A stretch of DNA of 64,000 nt from Agromyces sp. Soil535 (GTDB taxonomy: Bacteria; Actinomycetota; Actinomycetes; Actinomycetales; Microbacteriaceae): contig NZ_LMRW01000001.1 of NCBI RefSeq assembly GCF_001428255.1, forward strand, positions 436,504 to 500,503, in the 5' to 3' direction. The translations under genes were made by a program, and so were the position numbers. The notes under the pieces are model-generated. The model did not search any database. It was not told the DNA's origin and saw only the letters and a program-made list of their open reading frames with translations. This document shows, piece after piece, positions 17,681-26,040 of this stretch. How positions within the stretch are numbered: the stretch's first letter is position 1; every line of letters starts with the position of its first letter.

Positions 17681-18082
17681 TCACCCGGTTCGCGGCAACG
17701 TGCCGATCTCGTCGCCCGATTCGTCGAAGACGGTCATGGTCGACCCGTCGACGGTGGCCGTGGCGAGCCCGGAGAGCCACGTGTCGATGTCTTCGCAGGC
17801 CATGAGCGTCGTGGCGACGTTCTCGAACGTGACGGTGTCGCCCTCCTCGGTCCACTCGCCGTTCATCTGGTTGCAGCCGTCGGTGCCGGTGAGTGTGCCG
17901 TCGTCCTCGAGCACGAGCGAGGGCTCGGTGGTCTCGCCGGTGTCGCCCCAGGTGCCGGCCGCACTCTCGGAGCCGCCGCCGTAGCCCGTTCCCCCACCGC
18001 CCGTGGCGCACCCCGCAAGTGCGAGGGCCGCAGCCACGAGGATCGTGCCGGTGCGTGTCATGGACCGCAGCATCCGTGCCAT
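17681..18082 (-). CDS. META domain lipoprotein
   Basis: 133 residues. A signal peptide ends in the lipobox LAGC with cysteine 25, followed by a Gly-rich linker. The remainder is one META domain: TWGDTGETTEPSLVLEDDGTLTGTDGCNQMNGEWT includes the conserved GCNxxxG motif. META domains are found in cell-surface proteins such as HslJ. Their function is unclear, with links to stress resistance. The second in-frame ATG at 18061 (MTRTGTILV) is an equally good start. The protein should be anchored to the outer face of the membrane. Confidence 0.8.
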   Translation of the reverse strand: MARMLRSMTRTGTILVAAALALAGCATGGGGTGYGGGSESAAGTWGDTGETTEPSLVLEDDGTLTGTDGCNQMNGEWTEEGDTVTFENVATTLMACEDIDTWLSGLATATVDGSTMTVFDESGDEIGTLPRTG

Positions 18083-18104
18083 GGGCGCCAGCGTACTCCG
18101 ACCC

Positions 18105-19016
18105 TCAGCGACCGGCTGGGACCGCCGTCGCGCGTGCCGCCCTCGCGAGCGCGTCCCGGCAGGCGACGACGGCCGGGCGGGCGGCCGCCGCCAAGCGGGT
18201 GGAGCTGAAGACCTCGCGCTGCGGATGGCCCGGCAGGTCGACGAGCGTGACGCTCGGCGCCTCGCCCGCCCAGACGAGGTCGGGCAGCAGGCCCACGGCG
18301 TTGCCCGAGCGGATGAGCCGGATGTGCGCCATGAGGTCGGCGGTCTCGAAGCGCACGTCGGGCTCGAACCCTGCGGCGCGGCAGAGCTGCTCCGCCCACT
18401 CGCGCGAGGCGGTGCCCTGCGGCTCGAGCACCCACGGCATTCCGGATGCCGCGGCGAGGCCGTCGACGACGGGCCGCGCCGTGTGCGGCGGCAGCGCGAG
18501 CCGGATCGCGTCGGCGGCGAGGTGCACGCGGTCGAGGTCGTCGCGGTGAGCGCGCGTGTGCCCGGGATACTGCTCTGCGATCACGAGGTCGAAGTCGCGC
18601 GCCGCGACCTCGAAGAGGCCCACGTCGGGCTCGCGCTCGGTGACCTCCACGCGCAGGTCGGGGTGCTCGCTGCGGAGCAGGGTGAGGGCCTGCGGCACCA
18701 TGGCGTGGGCCGCGGACTGGAACACCGCGATGCGCACGGTGCCGCCGACCGCGGTGAGCGAGCGCGCGACATCCGACTCGGCCTCCTCGAGCCGGTCGAG
18801 CACGGCGCGGGCGTGACTGACGAGCAGCTCCGCCTGCGGGGTGAGCTGCACCCGTCGCCCGACCTGCACGAGCAGGGGAACCCCGGCCTCCTTCTCGAGC
18901 TGGCTGAGCTGCTGCGACACCGAAGACGGACTGTACGAGAGCGCCTCGGCGACGGCGGCGAGCGTACCGCGCTGGCTGAGCTCCACGAGCAGCCGCAGGC
19001 GTCGCACGTCGAGCAT
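18105..19016 (-). CDS. LysR family regulator, probable regulator of putA
   Basis: 303 residues. The helix-turn-helix is RLLVELSQRGTLAAVAEALSYSPSSVSQQLSQLEKEAGVPLL at the N-terminus, followed by a periplasmic-binding-like effector domain with TVRIAVFQSAAHAMVPQAL. The start at 19016 has an excellent ribosome-binding site, GGGGAGGA. It is divergent from putA, and the shared intergenic region has two direct copies of TACCGAACGG. Control of putA, probably with proline or a catabolite as effector, is inferred from this layout. Confidence 0.87.
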   Translation of the reverse strand: MLDVRRLRLLVELSQRGTLAAVAEALSYSPSSVSQQLSQLEKEAGVPLLVQVGRRVQLTPQAELLVSHARAVLDRLEEAESDVARSLTAVGGTVRIAVFQSAAHAMVPQALTLLRSEHPDLRVEVTEREPDVGLFEVAARDFDLVIAEQYPGHTRAHRDDLDRVHLAADAIRLALPPHTARPVVDGLAAASGMPWVLEPQGTASREWAEQLCRAAGFEPDVRFETADLMAHIRLIRSGNAVGLLPDLVWAGEAPSVTLVDLPGHPQREVFSSTRLAAAARPAVVACRDALARAARATAVPAGR

Positions 19017-19092
19017 GAGGTCCTCCCCTTGCCGAGTCGCCCGAATCCGTACGGAAACGGGCCACTCGGGATGGCGATTGATCATTCGATTC

Positions 19093-19136
19093 TACCGAAC
19101 GGTATCCGTCGGATTCATTCGCTGTACCGAACGGAT
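19093..19136. promoter_or_regulatory. Candidate LysR sites between lysR and putA
   Basis: TACCGAACGGTA (19093-19104, arms TACCG/CGGTA) and TACCGAACGGAT (19125-19136) are direct repeats 32 bases apart, about three helical turns. A separate palindrome CCGTACGG lies at 19047-19054. Two phased sites in a divergent LysR promoter fit a recognition plus activation site arrangement. Confidence 0.55.
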
Positions 19137-19202
19137 GTCACGGCGCACACTGGAAGCTGCACGGCACACCTCAGCGTGCCCGAAGTGAAGGACACTACCC
19201 TC

Positions 19203-22200
19203 GTGACCATGTCGAATGCCGCCACGGATCTCGCGCCGAGCACCGACCACGTCGTCGCCCTCGTGCGCCGCTGGCTCGCCGAGAGCGCCGAACACCCCGC
19301 AGACCCGGCCGCCGAGCGCCTCGCAGGGGTGCTGAAGGACCCGAACGGGCTCGCGTTCACCGTGGGCTTCGTCGACGGCGTCATGCGGCCCGAAGACCTG
19401 GGCGTCGCCGGCCGCAACCTCGAGCAGGTCGCGAGGCTCACGCCGAAGTTCCTGCCGTGGTACCTGCGCGCCGCGATCCGCCTCGGCGGGTTCGTCGCCC
19501 CGGTGTTCCCATGGGTGGTCATCCCGATCGCCCGGCGCGTGCTGCGCCAGATGGTCGGCCACCTCGTGCTCGACGCGACCCCCGAGAAGCTCGGGCCCGC
19601 CATCGCCACGCTTCGCGAATCGGGCAACCGCCTGAACCTGAACCTCCTCGGCGAGGCGGTGCTCGGCGAGGACGAGGCCGATCGGCGCCTGCGCGGCACC
19701 TACGAGTTCCTCGCCCGCGACGACGTCGACTACGTGTCGATCAAGGTGTCCAGCGTCGTGAGCCAGCTCTCGATGTGGTCGTTCGACGAGGCGGTCGCCA
19801 AGGTGGTCGCGAAGCTCACCCCGCTCTACGAGCTCGCCGCCGCTTCGACGGGCTCGGTTTCGACGGGCTCAACCAACAGGGGCAAGTTCATCAACCTCGA
19901 CATGGAGGAGTACCGCGACCTCGACCTCACGATCGCGGTGTTCACGACCCTGCTCGACCAGCCGCAGCTCCGCGGCCTCGAGGCGGGCATCGTGCTGCAG
20001 ACCTACCTTCCCGACGCCCTGGGCGCCATGCAGGAGCTCACGGCGTGGGCGACCGCCCGCCGGCAGGCCGGCGGCGCACCGATCAAGGTGCGCGTCGTGA
20101 AGGGCGCCAACCTCGCCATGGAGCACGTCGACGCCGCCATCCACGGCTGGCCGCTCGCCACCTACGACACCAAGCAGGACTCCGACACCAACTACAAGCG
20201 GGTGCTGCACTGGTCGATGACGCCCGAGCACACCGACGCCGTGAAGCTCGGCGTCGCCGGCCACAACCTCTTCGACGTCGCCCACGCGTGGCTCACCGCC
20301 CTTCAGCGCGGCGTCGCGTCCAGCGTCGAGTTCGAGATGCTCCTCGGCATGGCGATCGGCCAGGCCGAGGCGGTGCGCCGAGACGTCGGCAACCTCCTCC
20401 TGTACACGCCCGTCGTGAACCCGACCGAGTTCGACGTGGCGATCGCCTACCTCATCCGCCGGCTCGAGGAGAACGCGAGCCAGGACAACTTCATGTCGGC
20501 CGTGTTCGAGCTCGACCGCGACCAGCGACTGTTCGAGCGCGAGCGCACCCGGTACGAGCGGTCGCTCGCAGCACTCGAGGCGGACACTTCGACGCTGCTC
20601 AGTGGAACTGCCGCGCGCGTGCCCGCCCCGAACCGCACCCAGAACCGACGCGCCGAGTGGACGGATGCCTCGCTCGCCGCGGCGATGGCCGTGGCCGACG
20701 CTCCCGCACCCGGCACCGAGCACGAGGACGACGCGTCGCTCACGAGCACCGTGCTCGAGATCGTGCGCGGCTCCGGGGGCCTCGACGTCGATGCAGCGGA
20801 TGCCGCGGCATCCGGTGCCCTGGCCGCTCCGACCGGCCCCGGCGCCACCCCCGGCTTCCGCAACGAACCCGACACGGACCCCGCACTCGCCGCGAACCGC
20901 GAGTGGGGACGCCGCATCCTCGCGCGGGTGCCCGGGTCGCCGCTCGGTCTGGACACGATCGCGCGGGCGCGCATCGTCGATGCCGCGACGCTCGAGTCCG
21001 TGATCCGGACCGTGGCCGCGAACGGCCGCGCCTGGGGCCAGCTGCCCGGGTCCGAGCGCGCAGCGGTGCTGCACCGCGCCGGCCTCGCGCTCGCGGCCAA
21101 CCGCGACCGTCTCATCGAGGTGATGGCGGCCGAGACCGGCAAGACCATCGCCGAGGCGGACCCCGAGGTCAGCGAGGCGATCGACTTCGCGCACTACTAC
21201 GCCGAGCGCGCGCGCGAGCTCGACCACGTGCAGGGCGCCGTCTTCGTGCCGCCGAAGCTCACCGTCGTGACGCCGCCGTGGAACTTCCCCGTCGCGATCC
21301 CCGCGGGCGGCGTGCTCGCCGCGCTCGCCGCTGGCTCGGGCGTCATCATCAAGCCGGCGAAGCTCGCCCAGCGTTCGGGCGCCGTCATGGTCGAGGCGCT
21401 CTGGGAGGCGGGCGTGCCCCGCGAGCTCCTCACCCTCGTCGACCTCGGCGCGCGCGAGCTCGGCACCCAGCTCGTCTCGCATCCCGCGGTCGACCGGGTC
21501 ATCCTCACGGGCGCGTACGAGACCGCGCAGCTGTTCCGCTCGTTCCGCAACGACCTGCCGCTGCTCGCGGAGACGAGCGGCAAGAACGCGATCATCGTGA
21601 CGCCGTCGGCCGACCTGGACCTCGCGGCATCCGACGTCGTGAAGAGCGCCTTCGGCCACGCCGGCCAGAAGTGCTCGGCCGCGTCGCTCGTGATCCTCGT
21701 GGGCTCGGTCGCGAGGTCCGAGCGGTTCCACCGCCAGGTCGTCGACGCCGCCGCGTCGCTGCGCGTCGGCTACCCCGAGCAGGCGCTGAGCCAGATGGGC
21801 CCGATCATCGAGCCCGCGAACGGCAAGCTGCTGCACGCCCTCACCCAGCTCGGCATCGACGAGGAGTGGCTCGTCGAGCCCAGGCAGCTCGACGGCACCG
21901 GCCGCCTCTGGTCGCCCGGCATCCGCACCGGCGTGAAGGCCGGCTCGTACTTCCACCTCACCGAGTTCTTCGGGCCCGTGCTCGGCGTGATGCACGCCAG
22001 GGACCTCGACGAGGCCATCCGCATGCAGAACGCAGTGGACTACGGCCTCACGGCCGGGCTGCACTCGCTCGACCCCGACGAGGTGGCGACCTGGATCGAC
22101 CGCGTCCAGGCGGGCAACCTCTACGTGAACCGCGGCACCACCGGCGCCATCGTGCAGCGCCAGCCGTTCGGCGGCTGGAAGCGCTCGGCGGTCGGCGCGG

Positions 22201-22883
22201 GCGCGAAGGCCGGCGGCCCGAACTACCTGTTCGGCCTCGGCGAGTGGATGCCGCAGCACGGCACCTCCTCGAGCACCCTCCACCTGCGCGGCCTCGAGAA
22301 GCGCGTCACCGAGCTCATCGAGGCGTCGCAGCCGGCCCTCGACTACGAGTCGTTCGACGTGCTGCGCCGCTCGGCCCTCTCCGACGAGGTCGCCTGGGCC
22401 GAGGAGTACGGCGTCGTGAAGGACGTGTCGGGCGTCGGCGTCGAGCGCAACCTGTTCCGCTACCGGCCGCTGCCCGTCACCATCCGCATCGGCGAGGCGT
22501 CGACGCTCGCCGAGGGCCTGCGCATCATCGCGGCCGGCCTGCTCGCGAAGGCCCCGCTCACCGTGTCGACGGCGATCGAGCTGCCGAAGGCCGTGCGCAC
22601 CATCCTCGCCGCACGCGACGTGCGCGTCATCCGAGAGGGCGACGCCGCGTGGCTGGACCGCGCCGCGAAGGGCGGCATCACCACCTCGCGCGTGCGCCTC
22701 GTCGGCGGCGGCGCATCGGCACTCGCCGAGGCCCTGGGCGGCACTCCGGATGTCGCGGTGTGGTCGCACCCCGTCACGCCGTCGGGCCGCGTCGAGCTGC
22801 TGCCGTTCCTGCACGAGCAGGCGATCTCGATCACGAACCACCGCTTCGGCAACCCCACGACCCTCACGGACGGCGTGATCTAG
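19203..22883 (+). CDS. putA: Bifunctional proline dehydrogenase / L-glutamate gamma-semialdehyde dehydrogenase
   Basis: 1226 residues from GTG 19203 (AAGGA ten bases upstream; ATG 19209 is possible). Proline is oxidised by the FAD-linked PRODH domain (about 120-440), with RVVKGANLAMEHVDAAIHGW and the closing YLIRRLEENAS motif. P5C is then oxidised to glutamate by the ALDH domain (about 560-1020), with TPPWNFPVAIPAGG, LLAETSGKNA and FGHAGQKCSAASL, catalytic Cys 824. The last 200 residues are the usual PutA tail. The linker near 520-535 is an Ala/Ser/Asp tract. A repeat-derived insertion sits near residue 214-225. The TAG stop is part of the target duplication of an insertion sequence. Confidence 0.93.
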   Translation: MTMSNAATDLAPSTDHVVALVRRWLAESAEHPADPAAERLAGVLKDPNGLAFTVGFVDGVMRPEDLGVAGRNLEQVARLTPKFLPWYLRAAIRLGGFVAPVFPWVVIPIARRVLRQMVGHLVLDATPEKLGPAIATLRESGNRLNLNLLGEAVLGEDEADRRLRGTYEFLARDDVDYVSIKVSSVVSQLSMWSFDEAVAKVVAKLTPLYELAAASTGSVSTGSTNRGKFINLDMEEYRDLDLTIAVFTTLLDQPQLRGLEAGIVLQTYLPDALGAMQELTAWATARRQAGGAPIKVRVVKGANLAMEHVDAAIHGWPLATYDTKQDSDTNYKRVLHWSMTPEHTDAVKLGVAGHNLFDVAHAWLTALQRGVASSVEFEMLLGMAIGQAEAVRRDVGNLLLYTPVVNPTEFDVAIAYLIRRLEENASQDNFMSAVFELDRDQRLFERERTRYERSLAALEADTSTLLSGTAARVPAPNRTQNRRAEWTDASLAAAMAVADAPAPGTEHEDDASLTSTVLEIVRGSGGLDVDAADAAASGALAAPTGPGATPGFRNEPDTDPALAANREWGRRILARVPGSPLGLDTIARARIVDAATLESVIRTVAANGRAWGQLPGSERAAVLHRAGLALAANRDRLIEVMAAETGKTIAEADPEVSEAIDFAHYYAERARELDHVQGAVFVPPKLTVVTPPWNFPVAIPAGGVLAALAAGSGVIIKPAKLAQRSGAVMVEALWEAGVPRELLTLVDLGARELGTQLVSHPAVDRVILTGAYETAQLFRSFRNDLPLLAETSGKNAIIVTPSADLDLAASDVVKSAFGHAGQKCSAASLVILVGSVARSERFHRQVVDAAASLRVGYPEQALSQMGPIIEPANGKLLHALTQLGIDEEWLVEPRQLDGTGRLWSPGIRTGVKAGSYFHLTEFFGPVLGVMHARDLDEAIRMQNAVDYGLTAGLHSLDPDEVATWIDRVQAGNLYVNRGTTGAIVQRQPFGGWKRSAVGAGAKAGGPNYLFGLGEWMPQHGTSSSTLHLRGLEKRVTELIEASQPALDYESFDVLRRSALSDEVAWAEEYGVVKDVSGVGVERNLFRYRPLPVTIRIGEASTLAEGLRIIAAGLLAKAPLTVSTAIELPKAVRTILAARDVRVIREGDAAWLDRAAKGGITTSRVRLVGGGASALAEALGGTPDVAVWSHPVTPSGRVELLPFLHEQAISITNHRFGNPTTLTDGVI
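19842..19874. repeat. Repeat fragment inside putA reading frame
   Basis: Two copies of TTCGACGGGCTC follow each other (CTTCGACGGGCTCGG, then TTTCGACGGGCTCAACCA). This word resembles the dispersed TTTCGA...CTCAACC repeats of these genomes. It is translated in frame as STGSVSTGST between the PRODH strands ending LYELAAA and KFINLDMEEYRDLDL, where homologues normally have a short linker. Confidence 0.6.
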
Positions 22884-22884
22884 G
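22879..22884. repeat. Left target-site duplication of the IS (TCTAGG)
   Basis: TCTAGG here and at 23990-23995 flank the insertion sequence directly. The left copy contains the TAG stop codon of putA. On the other strand the same CTAG gives the stop codon of the transposase. Confidence 0.8.
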
Positions 22885-23878
22885 TGTGCTGCCCAGGCAG
22901 GTTGGTCAATCTGCTGATGGGTGGGTGGCCGCCGATCGCGGTGTGGGGCCGATGGTGATTGTAGGCGTGCAGCCAGGCGGGGAGTGCGTTGCGGCGGGCT
23001 GATTCGGAGTTGTAGTGCCGGGAGTATGCCCAGCCGTCGGCGAGGGTGCGGTGGAAGCGTTCGATCTTCCCGTTGGTCTGTGGTCGGTAGGGGCGGGTGC
23101 GCTTCGGACGGATACGCAGCTCTGTGCAGGCATCGCGCCAGGCGAAGGAACGGTAAGCCGAGCCGTTGTCGGACAGGACCCGTTCGACCGTCACGCCTCG
23201 GTCGGCGAACCAGCCCACCGCGCGGTGGAGCACGGCGACCGCGGTGGCCGCGGTCTCATCGTCGTGGATCTCGGCATAGGCGACACGAGAGTGGTCGTCG
23301 ATGACGGTATGGATGAATGCGGTCCCGGTGACCATGTCTCCGGCGATGCCTCGTCTGCCGGTTCGTTTCGCTGTGACCGCTCTGTTCCGCATCCCGGAGG
23401 AACGACCGACGTATCGCCAGCCTCCGCCGTCGGGGATGTTGCCGAGCTTCTTCACATCGACGTGGATCAACGCACCCGGCGTCGCGTGTTCGTAGCGACG
23501 GGCCGGCTCGCCGGTGCGCACGTCGACGTGGCTGAGCCGGTTCACCCGGCAACGAGTCAGGACCGCATGCACCGTCGATGCCGGCATGCCCAGCTCCGCG
23601 CCGATCGCGACTGGGCCTAGCCGCTTCTTCCACCGCAGATGCACGACCTTGCGGACTAGGATCCGCGAAGTCTTGTTCGGGCTCGAATGCGGACGTGAGG
23701 AGCGGTCCTGCATGCCTGCCTCGCCCATCTCGACGTAGCGACGCGCCCAGCGTTCCGCGGTCCGCCACGACACCCGGAAGTAGCTCGCGGCTGCGGCGAT
23801 CGTCCACGCGTCTTCGACGACTTTCTGCGCGAGCCGGAGCCGTTGGCGGGGTGTCAAAGCAGCATTAGCGTGGGACAC
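22880..23878 (-). CDS. IS481 family transposase
   Basis: 332 residues. An N-terminal helix-turn-helix region (residues 5-110) with TPRQRLRLAQKVVED and AAASYFRVSWRTAERWARRY precedes an rve catalytic core. The acidic residues are in LIHVDVKKLG, LSDNGSAYRS and NGKIERFHRTL (DDE). The ending YNHHRPHTAIGGHPPISRL is the family hallmark. The GTG start has GGGAGG as ribosome-binding site, but this lies in one arm of a hairpin (see 23879-23940). The TAG stop is supplied by the CTAG target site outside the element's terminal repeat. Confidence 0.93.
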   Translation of the reverse strand: MSHANAALTPRQRLRLAQKVVEDAWTIAAAASYFRVSWRTAERWARRYVEMGEAGMQDRSSRPHSSPNKTSRILVRKVVHLRWKKRLGPVAIGAELGMPASTVHAVLTRCRVNRLSHVDVRTGEPARRYEHATPGALIHVDVKKLGNIPDGGGWRYVGRSSGMRNRAVTAKRTGRRGIAGDMVTGTAFIHTVIDDHSRVAYAEIHDDETAATAVAVLHRAVGWFADRGVTVERVLSDNGSAYRSFAWRDACTELRIRPKRTRPYRPQTNGKIERFHRTLADGWAYSRHYNSESARRNALPAWLHAYNHHRPHTAIGGHPPISRLTNLPGQHT

Positions 23879-23989
23879 GAGGACCTCCCTGGTCTCGAGT
23901 GAGGGAACTAGACAGCTCCACTCTCGACCGGGAGGTCCTCACCCGTCTATCGACACGTCACAACTCAACCAACGTCCCTGGGCAGCACA
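22885..23989 (-). mobile_element. IS481-family insertion sequence, complete, 1105 bp
   Basis: The ends are imperfect inverted repeats, TGTGCTGCCCAGG followed by eight more positions, matching at 19 of 21. Six-base target duplications TCTAGG flank it. It carries one transposase gene on the minus strand. Intact ends, intact duplication and an uninterrupted transposase suggest a recent insertion. Removing the element restores a continuous putA stop and downstream sequence. Confidence 0.9.
23879..23940 (-). promoter_or_regulatory. Hairpin masking the transposase ribosome-binding site
   Basis: On the minus strand GAGGACCTCCC (from 23940) pairs perfectly with GGGAGGTCCTC (from 23889), which abuts the GTG start and contains the Shine-Dalgarno GGGAGG. 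Only transcripts that begin outside the element would carry both arms. A promoter within the 40-base loop region would give mRNA lacking the first arm. This is the arrangement other insertion sequences use to escape activation by read-through transcription. Confidence 0.6.
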
Positions 23990-23995
23990 TCTAGG
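23990..23995. repeat. Right target-site duplication of the IS (TCTAGG)
   Basis: Matches the left copy at 22879-22884 exactly. Confidence 0.8.
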
Positions 23996-24003
23996 CCGGG
24001 TAC

Positions 24004-24098
24004 GGGTTGAGGAGGCCGCGCAGCGGCCGTCTCGAAACCCGGCGTTCGGGCGTCAGGGTTTCGAGACGTGTCGGCCTACTGCCGGCGCTCCTCAACCC
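24004..24098. repeat. Hairpin repeat element R3
   Basis: GGGTTGAGGAGGCCGC...GTCTCGAAACCC on the left pairs with GGGTTTCGAGACG...GGCGCTCCTCAACCC on the right, with an inner GGCCGC-GCA-GCGGCC hairpin. It lies between the convergent putA (originally) and histidine kinase genes and ends six bases before the kinase stop, so it may serve as a two-way terminator. Confidence 0.85.
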
Positions 24099-24103
24099 GC
24101 GGC

Positions 24104-25378
24104 TCAGGCTCGCCCGCGGGTCTCGGAGTTTCTGAGGCTGAACTCGGCCACCAGGCCGCCGCCCGGCCGCGGGTGGAGTTCGAGCTCACCGCCATGGGCT
24201 GCTGCGACGGCCCGCACGATCGACAGCCCGAGTCCGAACCCCTCGCGATCGGCCCGGCGTGACGCCTCACCGCGATGGAAGGGTTCGCCGAGCGCCGCGA
24301 CCTCGGCGTCGCTCAGTTCGCGGCCGGTGTTCTCCACGGTGAACCCGGGCCGTGGCGGGTCGACCCGCACGATGACGACGCCGCGGTCGTCGTTGTAGCG
24401 CATGGCATTGTCGAGCAGGTTGCGCACGGCGAGGCGGAGCAGCTCCTCGTCGCCGTCGACGACGGTGGGGGTGGCGGTGGCGGATGCCTCGAGCGCGATG
24501 TCCACCCCCCGCTCTGCCGCGTCGGCTTCGACCTCGGTCACCGCTGCGGCGAGGATTGCGCCGAGGTCGACCCGCACCCGGTCGGCCGTGCGGATGCGCC
24601 CCCGCGCGAGCACCAGCAGCGCGCCGATGAGGCGCTCGCTGTGCGCGTTCGCCGAGAGCGCCCGGCGCACCGCCGGTTCGAGCTCGGCGGGCACCCTGCC
24701 CTGTTCGAGCGGGATCTCCAACGCCGCACGCGTCACCGTGAGCGGCGTGCGCAGCTCGTGCGACGCGTTCTGGATGAACCGGTCCTGCGCCTCGAAGCCG
24801 GTGTGCAGGCGGTCGAGCATGCCGTCGATCGTGTCGCCGAGCTCCTTGATCTCGTCATCGGGGCCCGCGAGCTCGAGACGGCGGTCGAGCTCGTCGGTCG
24901 TGATGCGACGGGTGAGCGCGGTGACCTCGGCGATGCGGCTCAGCGAGCGGCGTGCGAGCCAGCCGGCCAGCAGCACGGCGACGATCGCGAAGACCGCGAT
25001 GACGGCGACGGATGCCACCAGCAGGCTGCCGAGCACCTCCTCCGAGAGCGCCCCCGAGTACTCGTCGAGCGTCGCCTCGAGGCCCTCGGGTGTGATGTGC
25101 TCGATGCTCCCCGACGGACCCGCCTCGGCGCCGAACGGGATGTCATCCTGCACCGCGATGCAGCTGGTGGACGGCGCGGCGCCCGAGGATTTCGCGGTCT
25201 GCACCGAGGTGCAGACCGTGGCGCCCGAGGCGGACAGGAAGAAGGTCTGCACGAGCAGGTATTGCACGGCGAGCAGGCCGATGCCCGCGGCGACGAATAT
25301 CACCGCGATCGTGATCGTCAGCCGGGTGCGGAAGCTCCACCGGCGCTGCGAGGTGTCGGGCTGCGTGTCAGAGGTCAT
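24104..25378 (-). CDS. Two-component sensor histidine kinase
   Basis: 424 residues. Membrane helix 1 (about 18-40, LTITIAVIFVAAGIGLLAVQ), an extracytoplasmic domain of about 95 residues with two cysteines, helix 2 (about 125-150, VLGSLLVASVAVIAVFAIVAVLLAG), HAMP, then the HisKA motif NASHELRTPLT and an HATPase domain with LLDNAMRYNDD and GFGLGLSIVRAVAAAHGG. It phosphorylates the regulator encoded just upstream. The regulator's stop is two bases before this ATG, so translation is coupled. The pair is divergent from a MacAB-like export operon and probably senses the compound exported. Confidence 0.9.
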   Translation of the reverse strand: MTSDTQPDTSQRRWSFRTRLTITIAVIFVAAGIGLLAVQYLLVQTFFLSASGATVCTSVQTAKSSGAAPSTSCIAVQDDIPFGAEAGPSGSIEHITPEGLEATLDEYSGALSEEVLGSLLVASVAVIAVFAIVAVLLAGWLARRSLSRIAEVTALTRRITTDELDRRLELAGPDDEIKELGDTIDGMLDRLHTGFEAQDRFIQNASHELRTPLTVTRAALEIPLEQGRVPAELEPAVRRALSANAHSERLIGALLVLARGRIRTADRVRVDLGAILAAAVTEVEADAAERGVDIALEASATATPTVVDGDEELLRLAVRNLLDNAMRYNDDRGVVIVRVDPPRPGFTVENTGRELSDAEVAALGEPFHRGEASRRADREGFGLGLSIVRAVAAAHGGELELHPRPGGGLVAEFSLRNSETRGRA

Positions 25379-25380
25379 GT

Positions 25381-26040
25381 TCACTCGATCCGGTAGCCGA
25401 GGCCCGGCGTGTTGTCGATCAACCACGGGTGCCCGAGCTTCTTGCGAAGTGTGTGCACCGCGAGGCGCACGGTCGCCGCGCTGTGCTCGCCCGGTTCGTC
25501 CCAGGCGAGGTCGAGCAGGCGTCGAGGCGAGAGGTAGCCGCCGTCGGCGGCGAGCAGCGCTTCGAGCACGGCGAGCTCACGTCGCGTGAGGCGCACCGGG
25601 CGCCCGTCGCGTTCGGCGAGCCGACGGACCGGGTCGAGGCGAACCCCGCCGCGTTCGAGCACCGCGTCGGCCGCGGCATCCCCTCGCCGCCGGCCGAGCG
25701 CACGGATGCGGGCCAGCAACTCGACGTACGCGAACGGCTTCGCGAGGTAGTCGTCGGCTCCGAGGTCGAGGCCGCGAACCCGGTCGCCGACGGCGCCGGC
25801 CGCGGTGAGCATCAGGATGCGAGCCGGATGCCCCTGCGCCACGAGGGTGCGACACACGGCGTCGCCGGACAGCACCGGGAGGTCGCGGTCGAGGAGCACG
25901 ACGTCGAAGTCGCTCTCGGCCAGGCGCTGCAGCGCCGCGGCTCCGTCGTGCACGACACCGACGCCGAAGCCGTCGAGGCGCAGGCCCTCGGACAGCGTCT
26001 CCGCGAGTTCGACCTCGTCTTCCACGACCAGCACGCGCAT
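25381..26040 (-). CDS. OmpR/PhoB family response regulator
   Basis: 219 residues. The receiver domain has phospho-acceptor D51 in VVLLDRDLP, acidic residues E7/D8 and the K of YLAKPF. The DNA-binding wing is LTRRELAVLEALLAADGGYLSPRRLLDLAWDE...VRLAVHTLRKKLG. A ribosome-binding site GGAGGAACG precedes the ATG. A tandem CGTTTGC repeat with an 11-base period lies upstream (26072-26089), so it probably controls its own genes and the divergent export operon. Confidence 0.92.
   Translation of the reverse strand: MRVLVVEDEVELAETLSEGLRLDGFGVGVVHDGAAALQRLAESDFDVVLLDRDLPVLSGDAVCRTLVAQGHPARILMLTAAGAVGDRVRGLDLGADDYLAKPFAYVELLARIRALGRRRGDAAADAVLERGGVRLDPVRRLAERDGRPVRLTRRELAVLEALLAADGGYLSPRRLLDLAWDEPGEHSAATVRLAVHTLRKKLGHPWLIDNTPGLGYRIE

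Follow-up and report, generated by a model that had tools for sequence, protein, structure and literature searches.

The window, by which we mean the whole 64,000-nucleotide stretch of Agromyces sp. Soil535 DNA analyzed here, contains a mobile element that we assign to the IS481 family. Its transposase matches the family model NF033577 with 334 bits (cut-off 224; E 7.7e-100), as a DDE transposase of the IS481 type, and it has Pfam matches to rve_3, rve and LZ_Tnp_IS481. By eye, the hallmarks of the family are present as well: an NCTAGN target, a 6-bp duplication, and inverted ends with TGT. NCTAGN is the target given for an IS481-family element in passages of PMC6794481. The main parts of the element are as follows.

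22885..23989, minus strand: IS481-family element, 1105 bp, limits set by eye
23965-23989 and 22885-22909: inverted ends, 21 of 25 bases alike by eye, the first 13 identical
23990..23995: 6-bp direct repeat TCTAGG (CCTAGA on the minus strand), the NCTAGN target copy at the left end
22879..22884: 6-bp direct repeat (CCTAGA on the minus strand) at the right end; its TAG at 22882-22880 is the transposase stop
22880..23878, minus strand: transposase reading frame, 332 amino acids, GTG start at 23878-23876

Several relatives align to the element over the whole of its positions 1-1105, and the sequence at its inverted ends is TGTGCTGCCCAGG. In ISRe46, the transposase stop codon likewise lies inside the right repeat, as described in part of PMC6794481. 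The insertion point is the stop codon of a large, oppositely oriented reading frame (18003-22883), which has retained a TAG of its own and resembles, by eye, a PutA-type enzyme; the stop codons of both this frame and the transposase come from the CTAG of the target. Two inverted repeats, CGGGTTGAGGAGG.../...CTCCTCAACCCG and CGTCTCGAAACCC/GGGTTTCGAGACG, lie at 24003-24099, in the gap that separates the element from the end of a pair of minus-strand reading frames running in the same direction (24104-26040; by eye, a sensor kinase and a response regulator); they are possibly the terminator of those two frames, or else an intergenic repeat.

Our interest is in the leader of the transposase gene, where a long hairpin is formed by the following parts.

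23940-23930, minus strand: 5' arm of the hairpin, GAGGACCTCCC, the exact complement of the Shine-Dalgarno arm, 40 bases upstream of it
23913..23922, minus strand: apical block AGTGGAGCTG, at sense positions -44 to -35, comprising the inner stem and loop of the hairpin
23889-23879, minus strand: 3' arm of the hairpin, GGGAGGTCCTC, containing the Shine-Dalgarno sequence GGGAGG 5 nt before the GTG

The original prediction for this locus held that the two arms are exactly complementary, lie 40 bases apart and cover the Shine-Dalgarno sequence of the transposase, and the window sequence bears this out. The 3' arm directly abuts the GTG, and the 11-mer occurs in exactly two copies in the whole window, both of them the arms of the hairpin. 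The stem exceeds the 11 bp first proposed: GAGGACCTCCCGGTC and GACC-A-GGGAGGTCCTC form its two sides, capped by an inner hairpin. The 101-nt leader has a minimum free energy (MFE) of -52.8 kcal/mol (z -4.87), and none of 200 dinucleotide shuffles is as low. For the 70-nt hairpin alone the MFE is -44.1 (z -4.9), and for its antisense strand it is -40.1 (z -4.6). A search of Rfam over 22700-24200, with E up to 5, returned no relevant match for the hairpin; the sole match (E 2.1) falls within the coding sequence, on the opposite strand.

Relatives of the element were drawn from two sources: genomes of the window's family, 151 of 398 of which contain a DNA match (often a short one), and named genomes, from which we used the best 80 of 535 loci. 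Of 112 tblastn hits we set aside L001, which duplicates the window, L003, which duplicates L005, and 13 more whose leaders were short or duplicated; this left 97 non-redundant leaders, window included. The hairpin is present in 91 of them, again counting the window. These 91 form the alignment used below; it leaves out L035, whose contig ends before the leader, and the hairpin-less L027, L028, L030, L031 and L033.

When the arms were checked for conservation and covariation on these 91 rows, as the original prediction had proposed, the pairing held up on both counts. In the outer 10-bp helix 97.1% of cells are standard pairs, and five pairs change on both sides. The 15-pair structure as a whole has 96 double-change cells, against a mean of 32.6 in shuffled alignments, none of which reaches 96 in 500 trials; controls with slid partners give at most 20. 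Parsimony on one FastTree tree of the transposase counts 22 paired substitutions (9+4+6+2+1), on a quick tree that omits the first 15 residues, holds 76 of the 91 rows and has 53 of its 139 inner branches under 80. Judged by these patterns of substitution, the hairpin is genuine, and selection acts to maintain its pairing.

The arms themselves come in several types, and GAGGACCTCC, GAAGGCCTCC, GAAGACCTCC, GAGAACCTCC, GAGTACCTCC and GAAGGTCTCC all have exact complements in the leaders that contain them. The spacing between the arms is variable, yet the base of the stem is fixed at the start codon. The apical block is found exactly in 66 of the 91 leaders and as GTGGAGYTG in 79 (window included), and one pair of the inner stem stays U-G or U-A in 86 of 88 cells. 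By eye, the stretch from the inverted end to the first arm varies in length and sequence (L046, L067 and others), and many leaders contain TGTGACGAC and a small ACGAC..GTCGT hairpin before the first arm.

Among more remote relatives, on plasmids, stems at the same place occur with other arms in a Phyllobacterium plasmid element (CATCCGGTCC/GGACCGGATG), in a Rhodococcus plasmid element (GGGCTGGTCCTT/AGGGACCAGCCC) and in IS1122 on a Clavibacter plasmid (GAGGCCTCCTGGC/GCCAGGAGGCCTC). Among the six distinct leaders from Pseudomonadota, five (L167, L173-L176) have a stem of at least 10 pairs, one mismatch allowed; the stems of this group extend into the start codon, and their arms are unrelated to those of the window. 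The Rhizobium etli leader has only a broken version of the stem, and an Agrobacterium element (L169, 27% identity) has no stem of this kind at its transposase start. In an additional set of 30 loci, we judged the hairpin to be present in 28 (imperfect in L195 and L211) and absent in L184, while L193 has no leader.

Searched against 396 genomes from the window's phylum, a covariance model, R1, matches in 29, in some of them weakly. A transposase start lies beside the motif at 25 of its 35 loci. L119 and L120 are L115 and L117 on the opposite strand; L128, L133 and L134 are decayed copies (partly by eye); and L121, L142, L144 and L146-L149 (E 1.5e-5 to 8.2e-4) we classed as chance or unclear. 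L117, which belongs to the window's own genome (C1:2923), is a recognizable hairpin before a decayed remnant of a transposase.

The original prediction overlooked a conserved promoter-like site on the other strand, just inside the coding region.

23877..23880, plus strand: predicted start of an antisense RNA, at the base of the hairpin, placed about 7 nt downstream of the -10
23866..23871, plus strand: predicted antisense (Pout-like) -10, TAGCGT, inside transposase codons 3-5
23843..23848, plus strand: predicted antisense -35, TTGGCG, 17 bases before the -10

In the first 100 coding bases of the 91 elements, the antisense strand contains 88 occurrences of TANNNT, against 33 expected, and these always lie at sense nucleotides 8-13 (88 of 91 leaders, window included); the three hairpin leaders without it are L046, L111 and L020. 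Codon 4 ends in T in all 91, whether the residue is Ala, Gly, Arg, Pro or Val, and elsewhere in the gene GCT accounts for 200 of 2843 Ala codons. Among full-length reading frames this T is found in 85 of 85, as compared with 6.3 predicted by codon usage, which is the strongest synonymous constraint in any of 330 columns. The next five constrained columns (354, 358, 366, 376 and 377) lie at the 3' end of the gene; this end extends into the right inverted repeat, where constraint on the DNA is to be expected. The TA is also kept, despite ACC as codon 5, in eight elements whose N-terminus is altered. Upstream of the -10, TTG occurs at a distance of 17 bases in 28 of the 91 elements and at no other spacing of 15-20. 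This follows from Gln codon 12, which is always CAA (28 CAA, 0 CAG), while elsewhere in the gene the ratio of the two codons is 174:437. The antisense strand also folds well, with z-scores of -5.4 and -6.0 in two relatives, beside the -4.6 of the window.

We counted the stem and the -10 together in 156 distinct leaders. Both are present in 133 and neither in 10, and TANNNT occurs in 133 of the 145 leaders with a stem of at least 9 pairs. Nine leaders have such a stem without the -10: six from Pseudomonadota (L167, L172-L176), L237, and L075 and L169, whose starts were wrongly placed in this count. L046, L111 and L020 have the stem and T at nucleotide 12 without TANNNT; the one remaining leader, L035, is an artefact. 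TANNNT is absent from the first 30 nt of the six distinct Pseudomonadota leaders, also when these are counted from the right ATG; four of the six have CATTCT on the antisense strand at sense nucleotides 14-19, and two do not. Taken together, the codon patterns show that the antisense -10 is constrained beyond the needs of the protein. The site is a predicted promoter and a conserved one, and it would probably be active as such; what speaks against it is that three hairpin leaders and the Pseudomonadota leaders have no TANNNT there and that the -35 is present in just 28 of 91.

What the hairpin does to the sense transcript can be predicted by folding. With both arms included, the median unpaired fraction of the Shine-Dalgarno region over the 91 elements is predicted to be 0.10; it is 0.43 for a transcript starting between the arms, and 0.39 when the upstream part is shuffled. 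The original prediction held that transcripts entering from outside would fold and those starting between the arms would not. Its first part is supported, in that predicted folding buries the Shine-Dalgarno sequence; the internal start that it also calls for found no such backing, since a consensus scan of the window leader gave no sense promoter between the arms or upstream of them. By this folding model, the hairpin most likely serves to conceal the start of the transposase gene in any transcript in which both arms are present. The same leader, when scanned, has no terminator-like site. On the sense strand, the 66 nt preceding the start codon contain just 6 TANNNT in all 91 elements, but this scarcity is not counted as evidence, because the flanks (15 seen, 60 expected) and the coding sequence (2 seen, 49 expected) are also poor in it.

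Neither of two attempts to tell which strand folds was informative. The sense MFE is below the antisense MFE in 78 of the 91 leaders, which says little because shuffled sequences behave alike (77 of 91). Departures from standard pairing give contradictory answers for the two stems: read on the sense strand, the outer stem has 4 G-U versus 12 A-C, and the inner stem has 73 G-U versus 6 A-C (19 versus 6 once a single pair, U-G in most cells, is set aside). We therefore rejected this criterion.

The elements that lack the hairpin have a common feature. Both hairpin and -10 are absent from ten elements, L027, L028, L030, L031, L033, L180, L184, L217, L230 and L231 (L033/L180 and L027/L217 being near-copies), and an eleventh, L237, has no -10 and an unrelated stem. 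All eleven have a reading frame upstream of the transposase. In L027, L030, L217, L230 and L231 the left inverted end lies beyond that frame; it was not seen in the other six. Pfam matches in five scanned frames are to a glyoxalase fold, MerR/TipAS, DUF2938 and two MFS transporters, and the frame in L180 is annotated as cmx. Passenger stop codon and transposase start overlap in L031 and L033. The state of the hairpin changes three times on the tree, twice on supported branches, and in both of these cases the -10 is lost alongside it. With two to three independent losses (sign test p 0.5), joint loss is beyond statistical test, because the losses are too few. The pattern fits the idea that a hairpin blocking upstream transcripts would be incompatible with an upstream gene. 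By eye, an unrelated strong stem lies between passenger frame and transposase in L027, L217, L184, L231 and L237; in L184, for example, GCCTTCCTGGG/CCCAGGAAGGC covers a stretch resembling a Shine-Dalgarno sequence. It looks as though these elements had either evolved a block anew or retained a terminator.

We propose, with a probability of roughly 60%, that the hairpin is one half of an IS10-like RNA-IN/RNA-OUT module that controls the transposase gene. An mRNA entering from outside would contain both arms, fold, and bury the Shine-Dalgarno sequence and start codon. In IS10, transcripts from outside hide the transposase start site in this way, an effect called fold-back inhibition. A promoter within codons 3-12 would give rise to an antisense RNA whose 5' end lies at the base of the hairpin; transcription would proceed outward across the hairpin, and the product would adopt its mirror-image fold (RNA-OUT). 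This RNA would then base-pair with the transposase mRNA that the element itself makes, at the 5' end of that mRNA, with first contact at the conserved apical loop. The hairpin would presumably lower translation, and the fact that related elements keep both the hairpin and the likely antisense promoter suggests that self-silencing is shared among them.

A broader statement, for which we would put the odds slightly below even, is that a large part of the IS481 family, in Actinomycetota and Pseudomonadota, shares an undescribed module in which a single stretch is both the fold-back switch of the mRNA and the body of an antisense RNA (promoter in codons 3-12), and which is lost whole by elements with passenger genes, some of these having a stop/start overlap in its place. 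Members of the IS481 family occur widely, and resistance genes travel with some of them, as in TnRErm46 (described in part of PMC6794481). If the broader statement is true, a shared regulatory RNA would explain quiet elements in actinobacteria, and the hairpin would be an RNA family supported by covariation and without a match in Rfam. The passenger-carrying elements would serve as a natural comparison for the purpose of fold-back inhibition.

The alternative that we take most seriously, though we consider it unlikely, is that the hairpin represses every transposase mRNA, the element's own included. In that case the mRNA would start upstream of the first arm and be opened in trans by a protein or by an antisense RNA, as in ISPpu9. 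This would agree with the failure to find a promoter between the arms, and the conservation of GTGGAGYTG in 79 of 91 leaders is expected of a binding site. There are also precedents in passages on other elements: IS200's own transcript has a stem-loop that sequesters its ribosome-binding site (PMC12594629), and the antisense RNA of ISPpu9 has been proposed to open such a structure (PMC8450116). On the other hand, the stretch from inverted end to first arm is by eye the least conserved part of the leader and varies in length, in the window it has no consensus promoter, and the transposase mRNA of Bordetella IS481 starts 19 nt from the antisense start (as reported in part of PMC11774165). We regard it as improbable, more so than the preceding alternative, that the element has fold-back inhibition from an internal sense promoter and no antisense RNA at all, with codons 3-5 constrained by some binding site or by an overlapping upstream reading frame ending at nucleotides 12-14. 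These nucleotides do form a stop in the -1 frame in 128 of the 136 hairpin leaders with T at nucleotide 12. But the -1 frame has a start codon in just 78 of the 136, compared with 91 of 136 for a control frame, and the eight leaders with TAC at nucleotides 12-14 still keep TANNNT; the overlapping frame is thus unsupported. Moreover, the T at nucleotide 12 disappears together with the hairpin.

The two remaining alternatives deny the RNA fold any function. The arms could be an element of the DNA, that is, an inverted repeat for transposase or repressor, or a cruciform, with RNA folding incidental. A symmetric operator would also gain compensatory changes, and on the sense strand the outer stem departs more often by A-C than by G-U (12 to 4). 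We nevertheless consider this reading very improbable: the arms are wholly different in distant subgroups while their position at or inside the start codon is constant, the spacing of the arms varies while the stem base stays at that codon, and one pair of the inner stem is almost always U-G or U-A (86 of 88 cells). Finally, the hairpin could be a chance palindrome in a leader rich in G+C: when 130 nt are shuffled, the mean stem is 5.8-8.5 bp, but individual stems do reach 10 pairs and more, with maxima of up to 17. Chance does not place them in the same position in 91 of 97 leaders with paired substitutions (z -4.87 in the window), and we take this explanation to be refuted by the comparison.

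The regulatory arrangement that we prefer, a fold-back hairpin read from the other strand as an antisense RNA, has parallels in several known systems. In IS200, passages of PMC12594629 and PMC3196728 describe a stem-loop in the 5' UTR of tnpA's own transcript that sequesters the ribosome-binding site. The window element is similar in having a stem-loop over the ribosome-binding site of a transposase, although the family is different; IS200 moreover uses another, separate stem-loop to terminate transcripts that impinge on it (PMC3196728, in part), whereas the scan of the window element detected no terminator-like site. In ISPpu9 (Asr9/Ssr9), according to sections of PMC8450116, a 5' UTR structure buries the RBS and an antisense RNA covers the 5' UTR. 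The window element is alike in its buried RBS and in its antisense cover, both predicted here. The antisense RNA of ISPpu9 is thought to activate by opening the structure (PMC8450116, same sections).

A parallel from the same transposase family is IS481 of Bordetella pertussis, for which portions of PMC11774165 report a promoter Pin and an antisense promoter Pout inside the transposase reading frame, with 5' ends that overlap by 19 nt. Pout was mapped by 5'RACE, the transposase start lies 19 nt from the antisense start, and the authors liken this control to that of IS10 (PMC11774165). The original prediction knew of no such description for IS481, which needs correcting: IS10-like antisense control had already been proposed there, in a text without words for a hairpin. 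Bordetella IS481 (Pin/Pout, Rfi2; PMC11774165, in the same portions) thus resembles the window element in its family and, as far as predicted for the latter, in its antisense promoter within the reading frame and its overlapping 5' ends. It differs in that the words hairpin, stem-loop and secondary structure do not appear in the main text, and in its printed -10, CATGCT, which (compared as printed) is unlike the window's TAGCGT and resembles the CATTCT of four of the six distinct Pseudomonadota leaders. By analogy only, the Bordetella geometry (19 nt) would put the sense start of the window element between the arms. In the open-access literature searched, we recognized no description of this hairpin in IS481 elements.

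The last comparison is with IS10. The inverted repeat inside the window element covers the Shine-Dalgarno sequence, as fold-back inhibition of the kind known from IS10, IS50 and IS200 calls for, and its pairing is maintained in relatives. On this evidence the element would work like IS10 control and is a candidate member of that class. IS10 is of an unrelated family and sequence. A further difference is that most carriers examined here are Actinomycetota, which are not known to have an ordinary Hfq. The antisense RNA of IS10 is complementary, over its first 35 nt, to the part of the mRNA where translation begins (PMC5006887, in part). The two systems are alike in that an antisense promoter lies close to where the transposase gene begins (RNA-IN/RNA-OUT in the same passages of PMC5006887; predicted here), and the window element is unlike IS10 in that the base of the stem, the predicted antisense start and the start codon all coincide.
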